Shown: positions 14,770-15,100 of the stretch, one piece after another | Layout: each line of letters begins with the position of its first letter | How positions within the stretch are numbered: the first letter of the stretch is position 1 | Source of the DNA: a virus | Virus record (IMG/VR): IMGVR_UViG_3300047375_001143 | Location: 1 to 21,825 of that record | DNA length: 21,825 bases | Strand: one strand, 5' to 3' | Made by a program: the position numbers and the translations under genes | Notes under the pieces: generated by a model | The model's database searches: none | What the model was told of the DNA's origin: nothing | The model's input: the letters and a program-made list of their open reading frames with translations, nothing else

Positions 14770-14791
14770 GTCAAAGAACTCCCCTTTATTT
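14770..14791. repeat. Inverted repeat, upstream arm
   Basis: On the minus strand this arm reads AAATAAAGGGGAGTTCT then TTGAC, ahead of the membrane-protein ATG. It matches the plus strand of 14412-14433 apart from two single-base indels. The TTTGAC within it also resembles a promoter upstream element, so it could double as a regulatory site. Confidence 0.6.
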
Positions 14792-14805
14792 AATAATATA
14801 AATAC

Positions 14806-14833
14806 AAAAAGAGGAATAGCCAAGCTACTCCTC
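14806..14833 (-). terminator. Intrinsic terminator of tRNA/ncRNA unit
   Basis: Minus strand GAGGAGTAGC-TTG-GCTATTCCTC forms a 10-pair stem (one G-U) with a 3-nt loop, followed at once by TTTTT. It closes the non-coding cassette and separates it from the membrane-protein gene. Confidence 0.85.
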
Positions 14834-14841
14834 TATAAAAT

Positions 14842-14871
14842 GAGGGCAGGTATTTGCAACTACCTACCCTC
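14842..14871 (-). other. Strong 11-pair hairpin before the terminator
   Basis: GAGGGTAGGTA and TACCTGCCCTC pair over 11 positions with one G-U, around an 8-nt loop (GTTGCAAA). It is followed by ATTTTATAG, so it could act as a first, weaker terminator or as a 3' stability element of the RNA. Confidence 0.65.
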
Positions 14872-15028
14872 GTAAATACACACCTTGAGTGCCCTGAGTC
14901 AAGCTCGGAAGGGAGGTGTGTTATATTTGAGGGGCTTCACCTTTATAGCGCGCTTCCAGCATCAAGGTCCCTACCTAAGCAATCCGTCGATTGTAATCTT
15001 AGGGTTTTACGTTTTACTCCCCTCTTAG

Positions 15029-15100
15029 TAGCGGATGGTGGATTCGAACCACCGGCCTCAAGGTTATGAGCCTTGCGAGCTACCACTGCTCTAATCCGCG
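15029..15100 (-). tRNA. tRNA-Met(CAU), initiator type
   Basis: A full 72-nt cloverleaf on the minus strand: acceptor CGCGGAT/ATCCGCT, D-arm GAGC-AGTGGTA-GCTC, anticodon arm CAAGG-CTCATAA-CCTTG, variable AGGCC, T-arm GGTGG-TTCGAAT-CCACC, discriminator A. Initiator features are the unpaired first acceptor position (C1 opposite U72, where bacterial fMet tRNAs have C1/A72), the A11-U24 pair, and an anticodon arm like chloroplast/cyanobacterial initiator tRNAs. The usual three G-C pairs of the anticodon stem are reduced to two plus A29-U41. CCA is not encoded. A promoter lies about 20 nt upstream and the structured RNA follows immediately. Confidence 0.93.

Follow-up and report, generated by a model that had tools for sequence, protein, structure and literature searches.

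RNA-A, a putative small non-coding RNA carried as a module in the tRNA arrays of tailed phages

Layout of the locus downstream of tRNA-Met

The window analyzed here is a stretch of 21,825 nucleotides from a 21.8-kb virus record (IMG/VR record IMGVR_UViG_3300047375_001143), for which the nearest cultured relative found is Flavobacterium phage immuto, at approximately 50% protein identity. On the minus strand of the window, a tRNA-Met gene with a CAT anticodon (15028..15100; ARAGORN, and Rfam tRNA model with 65.6 bits) reads from 15100 to 15028 and is followed by 232 nt that extend up to an intrinsic terminator (14805..14834, minus strand; hairpin 14834-14810), an 11-bp stem with a subsequent T run that is predicted to close the tRNA/RNA transcript. 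A first-pass annotation, based on the letters of the sequence, had read this stretch as a single structured RNA of about 220 nt, encoded together with the tRNA and itself neither a tRNA nor a tmRNA. The elements it described (a domain enclosed by GAGGGG/CCCCTC with two arms, a second stem, and two strong hairpins) were all located on the minus strand, and ARAGORN and Rfam gave tRNA-Met only. The 232-nt stretch has a folding energy of -84.3 kcal/mol (z = -5.8), a value as low as which was reached by 0 of 200 shuffles. Its 86-nt tail alone has a z-score of -4.9 and the first domain alone one of -2.2; much of the score of the whole stretch is thus due to the tail, and it is covariation rather than folding energy that establishes the first domain.

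To delimit the RNA, the 232 nt were aligned to 80 related loci obtained by a protein-anchored scan. Of the 232 nt, these loci share only the first ~105 and the terminator; in the relatives, this first part is located within tRNA arrays, and hairpins similar to the terminator of the window are found at the array ends. The second stem (14879..14920, minus strand), for which the first-pass annotation had noted a possible loop-to-flank pseudoknot, has an nhmmer match only in the near-identical contig L003, and the strong hairpin that follows it (14842..14871, minus strand), which precedes an ATTTTAT sequence and resembles a terminator, has only two weak matches. We take both as lineage-specific and terminator material lying outside the conserved RNA, so that the proposed 220-nt RNA is reduced to a conserved unit comprising its first ~100 nt. 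This unit, named RNA-A, lies directly 3' of tRNA-Met at 14924..15026 on the minus strand (103 nt as aligned; RNA position i corresponds to coordinate 15027 - i). The covariance model R1 matches it in cmsearch with 125.6 bits (E = 5.6e-28), a score that is not independent because the window sequence is in the seed through L001 and L003.

Fold and covariation of RNA-A

The type-1 form of RNA-A, to which the window copy belongs, comprises 48 distinct sequences in IMG/VR, all from metagenome assemblies, which fall into 20 clusters at a 90% identity threshold; the most distant pairs are 62% identical, and the lengths are 94, 100, 103, 104, and 109 nt. The family was enlarged by scanning IMG/VR with DNA patterns, and only a minority of these scans demanded the palindromic loop described below. 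RNA-A is present in a single copy per record, including records of 167-175 kb; two of its carriers (G785 and G786; 170-175 kb) have no detectable homologue of the baseplate protein of the window.

All type-1 copies share a predicted three-way junction of ~95 nt, formed by P1, by P2-P2b with a GACG tetraloop cap, and by P3 (window coordinates are given on the minus strand). In P1, GAGGGG (15019..15024) pairs with CCCCTC (14929..14934), and five of the six pairs show compensatory changes. The A-rich joining strand J1/2 (15004..15018; consensus AGNNAAACGUAAWAY) is unpaired in the consensus and has several invariant columns. P2 (CCUAAG/CUUAGG) and the inner P2b (CAAUC/GAUUG) occupy 14974..15003; covariation is found at two of five nested pairs and at pair 29-48 in P2, and at four of five pairs in P2b, which is capped by the GACG tetraloop (14985-14988), nearly invariant in the alignment columns. 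An invariant GGG (14969..14971), which could compete for the CC of P2 in a register that is less well kept, separates P2 from P3 (ACCUU/AAGGU; 14939..14968), an arm with a variable apical part in which four of five pairs covary.

The fold was derived from A1, a MAFFT alignment built without structure, on which RNAalifold proposes P1, P2, P2b, and P3. In A1, 13 of 25 pairs have compensatory changes and 95.8% of the cells are paired, as compared with 26-54% for slid partners. The covariation check in diverged homologues that the first-pass annotation had proposed came out in its favor: in a larger model-fitted alignment, which is biased towards the structure, 16 of 22 pairs are changed on both sides and 97.4% of the cells are paired (slid partners, at most 52.8%; none of 500 shuffles reached the observed level for any of the measures), although these statistics ignore kinship and the effective sequence number is ~23. 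A structure-blind mutual-information scan of all column pairs ranked the helix pairs at the top and added pairs 67-77 and 68-76 in the P3 arm. These covarying helices in diverged homologues indicate that RNA-A is a conserved structured RNA.

Two alternative pairings were considered. The minimum-energy register of the first arm (CCCUA/UAGGG) differs by just 1.4 kcal/mol from CCUAAG/CUUAGG in the sequence of the window, and it is kept in 89.5% of the cells versus 100% for the latter (97% at its last pair); it is probably not the conserved register. A pseudoknot between the GACG loop and the CGU of J1/2 was rejected, since variants with CAU retain the ACG of the loop and there is no covariation.

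The P3 arm also harbors the palindrome GCGCGC (14948..14953, minus strand). Hexamer counts at this position were 39 for GCGCGC, five for GCCGGC, which replaces it in one clade, and one each for GCGCGU and GCUGGC, single-base variants that are still self-complementary through G-U pairs. In the short variants, the hexamer lies within a 7-nt loop atop a 7-bp stem, which is the geometry seen in kissing-loop dimers, for example at the dimerization site of HIV-1. RNA-A might on this basis be a miniature homodimerizing phage RNA, two copies of which would dock through the P3 palindrome, a reading that we consider doubtful. Positions 76 and 77 (14951 and 14950) covary inside the arm with positions 68 and 67 (14959 and 14960), which weakens the palindrome as proof of dimerization: in the long variants, local pairing with positions 67-68 accounts for its changes equally well, as it does for much of the support for a dimer. 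The resemblance of the loop to a dimerization site is a weak lead.

Genomic context, related RNAs, and database searches

Type-1 RNA-A is encoded on the same strand as the adjoining tRNA, with its 3' end 0-4 nt ahead of a tRNA in 38 of 45 copies and its 5' end at most 2 nt after an upstream tRNA in 16 of them. The adjoining tRNAs vary (Leu, Arg, Gly, Met, and Ser), and RNA-A is found before tRNA-Leu as the first element past a protein gene, between Leu and Arg, Thr and Gly, or Arg and Met, and, in the window, as the last element. One copy (L150) lies on a 4.6-kb locus with no detected tRNA and has a strong terminator 31 nt downstream. Among 42 distinct Leu-Arg junctions, where spacers can be as short as 5-8 nt, 19 hold RNA-A (two of them together with RNA-C, described below), two hold a type-2 RNA, ten hold only RNA-C, and the other 11 lack all of these RNAs. 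The varied neighbors, the L150 copy, the filled and empty junctions, and the single copy per record suggest a modular RNA gene rather than the leader of one particular tRNA. Given that some relatives and the cultured phage immuto lack RNA-A, it is not essential.

With regard to transcription signals, a boxA-like TTCTTTGA is located between tRNA-Leu and the RNA, ~20 nt before the latter, in L015, L035, L043, L028, and L400, and this repeated position is suggestive of Nus antitermination. In the window, TTCTTTGA occurs at 14771-14778 (minus strand), past the terminator and upstream of the next gene, and its whole-window count is at chance level. The frequency of GTATNTTTATANTATTA, sought as a shared phage promoter motif, was no higher than chance.

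Type-2 RNAs are likely to be divergent relatives of RNA-A, as suggested by their position and by weak model scores. Three of them (L028, L050, and L400) match R1 at E-values of 0.0002-0.0013 and lie directly before tRNA-Arg, in L028 and L400 between tRNA-Leu and tRNA-Arg; a fourth, L394, shares the type-2 core, has no match to R1, and precedes another tRNA. As in RNA-A, there is a P1, an A-rich strand ending in GUAAAAYCC, and hairpin capping by GACG; unlike RNA-A, type-2 RNAs have two GACG hairpins and a conserved UUUGGCCGUAACUG in place of the GCGCGC arm.

A second structured RNA absent from Rfam, RNA-C, was observed in the same tRNA arrays. It has a P1 (GAGAGG/CCUCUC), an invariant GAAAGACCC, and an apparent pseudoknot pairing GGGUUU with AAACCC, which covaries (GGGUUA/UAACCC, AGGUUU/AAACCU, and GGCAUU/AAUGCC). 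Copies were located at L088:544-666, L109:993-1081, L111:4929-5052, L115:5360-5449, L120:1091-1186, L149:477-601, L154:220-308, and L220:8884-9001, and at L122:5498-5620, L145:3474-3587, L152:4168-4285, and L166:1581-1698 (minus strand). Blastn matched RNA-C to 28 records with weak E-values, and isolated phages of distant hosts have unannotated RNA-C-like sequences, among them Erwinia phage Hena1 (L417:527-633, between tRNA-Gly and tRNA-Glu) and Klebsiella phage RaK2 (L416:539-632, after a tRNA). Part of the motif is also present, unannotated, in Bacillus phage Eldridge (L418). No Rfam family covers the RNA-C-like sequences of isolated phages, and RNA-C is possibly a widespread phage RNA. Separately, Cellulophaga phage phi14:2 has a tmRNA match just below the curated score (L419:393-864; 46 versus 47 bits, E = 6.9e-16) that includes a pseudoknot-like stretch resembling RNA-C, and RNA-C might be linked to a tmRNA pseudoknot domain. 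A third compact structured element of ~54 nt (GCCGGGAGTTAYCC...ACCCGGY) lies between RNA-A and tRNA-Arg at L035:1500-1553 and L115:5222-5275.

Searches against known families returned no match to RNA-A. At the curated scores of Rfam 15, as the first-pass annotation had suggested checking, only tRNA matches were obtained in the window and in 11 relatives; the best sub-threshold match overlapping RNA-A by E-value was IS009, with 18.8 bits versus the 117 required. ARAGORN and the Rfam tRNA model found no tRNA (a cloverleaf with T-loop) within 15026-14924, tmRNA was detected neither by ARAGORN nor by Rfam at E-values up to 10, and self-cleaving ribozymes (hatchet, pistol, twister-sister, and hammerhead) gave no Rfam match up to E = 10. 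Blastn of RNA-A alone against 50,697 phage records returned chance fragments or nothing, with no cultured phage matched, and a query including the tRNA returned tRNA matches only. A model search with stricter filters detected no RNA-A in ~790 Bacteroidota genomes, 397 from a single family and 395 from a single class; the same model recovers RNA-A in 15 of 16 virus records. Pattern-scan matches in cellular contigs were rejected as chance matches of too loose a pattern after a context check, and the model found no RNA-A in two whole genomes taken from that scan. The open papers searched contain no prior description of RNA-A, and an earlier mention elsewhere is possible. The family appears to be new.

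Proposed role and comparison with known phage RNAs

We propose, with a probability of roughly 0.6, that RNA-A is a gene by which tailed phages encode a small non-coding RNA; it would form an exchangeable module of their tRNA arrays, and its transcript would be released by tRNA processing and act in trans during infection. RNA-A would be co-transcribed with the tRNAs. As the spacing suggests, its 5' end would be freed by 3'-end maturation of the upstream tRNA; the 3' end, going by spacing only, would be freed by the RNase P cut at the downstream tRNA. For the window copy, with no tRNA downstream, the 3' end would instead be produced by trimming that starts at the terminator and stops at P1. Action of the mature RNA in trans is the least certain step; the GACG loop, the A-rich J1/2, and the P3 loop would most likely be presented to a host or phage protein or RNA, with RNA-A serving as a decoy or regulator.

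Alternatively, RNA-A could be a cis-acting element of the tRNA operon: its fold would direct how the tRNA transcript is processed, stabilized, or antiterminated, and it would have no function after being cut off. Its position almost always directly upstream of a tRNA and the boxA-like sequence ahead of it in some loci would fit such an element; however, the window copy has no tRNA downstream, the L150 copy retains the fold and its own terminator with no tRNA at all, RNA-A precedes differing tRNAs while many Leu-Arg junctions lack it, and the conservation of the loop residues exceeds the needs of pairing. We consider this reading rather unlikely. It is less probable still that RNA-A mimics a tRNA or tmRNA domain and titrates a factor that handles tRNAs, for example RNase P or SmpB. 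P1 is acceptor-like and begins with GGGG, RNA-A is located in tRNA arrays, and the UCGACGG of P2b resembles the conserved UCGACGGG near the 5' end of tmRNA, a similarity that is a lead only. However, no tRNA or tmRNA covariance match lies within RNA-A at E-values up to 10, the T-loop GGUUCRA is absent, and UCGACGG is part of a tetraloop closed by five pairs, four of which covary.

Even lower is the probability that RNA-A is a selfish or neutral insertion that is carried along in tRNA arrays and does not benefit the phage: its presence or absence at one junction and the use of the same spot by unrelated modules are what such an insertion would leave, but purifying selection has acted on the fold and loops over 20 clusters at 90% identity, and there is one copy per record, with no encoded protein or target repeats seen. 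Finally, that the stretch is GC-rich terminator DNA folding by chance, or that it codes for protein, as the terminator-like tail hairpins and a 71-aa plus-strand ORF spanning the region might suggest, is refuted for the first domain by covariation and by length changes not divisible by three that break frames; the ORF runs antisense through the tRNA, and a conserved reading frame, sought across the 48 members, was not found (each frame is open in at most 23).

Phage tRNA arrays are customarily read as an aid to translation. In the present case, tRNAs and at least two structured RNAs that Rfam lacks are interchangeable occupants of the same array positions, and the arrays of these phages look like cassettes for non-coding RNA genes. 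What the RNAs of phage tRNA clusters do is an old question, and it becomes accessible to experiment here: the fold of RNA-A can be tested, its ends are defined, and variants of it exist in nature, and blastn matches to RNA-C occur in isolated phages, in one case flanked by annotated tRNAs. These sequence comparisons suggest that phages infecting marine bacteria have a functional RNA that has yet to be named.

Like RNA-A, the manA and wcaG motifs of marine phages are structured RNAs linked to phage tRNAs. The first-pass annotation had considered RNA-A a possible divergent member of these motifs, an assignment that is not borne out, as the Rfam matches up to E = 10 include neither of them. RNAs C and D of phage T4 (species 1 and 2) are small RNAs annotated at the tRNA-cluster end of a T-even phage, and RNA-A likewise lies in a tRNA cluster; these two stable RNAs have no known function. 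RNA-A has no model match to either, the best hit anywhere in an unfiltered R1 search of T4 69500-73500 (L415) having an E-value of 0.68. Structured orphan RNAs within the tRNA clusters of phages are already known as a kind, the examples being T4 RNAs C and D together with GOLLD and ROOL, phage or prophage RNAs of unknown function that are frequently near tRNA islands (PMC12286853). GOLLD is often larger than 800 nt, and GOLLD and ROOL form large multimeric cages, whereas RNA-A measures ~95 nt and is matched by no Rfam family; if RNA-A did dimerize, it would be a small counterpart of these multimeric RNAs.
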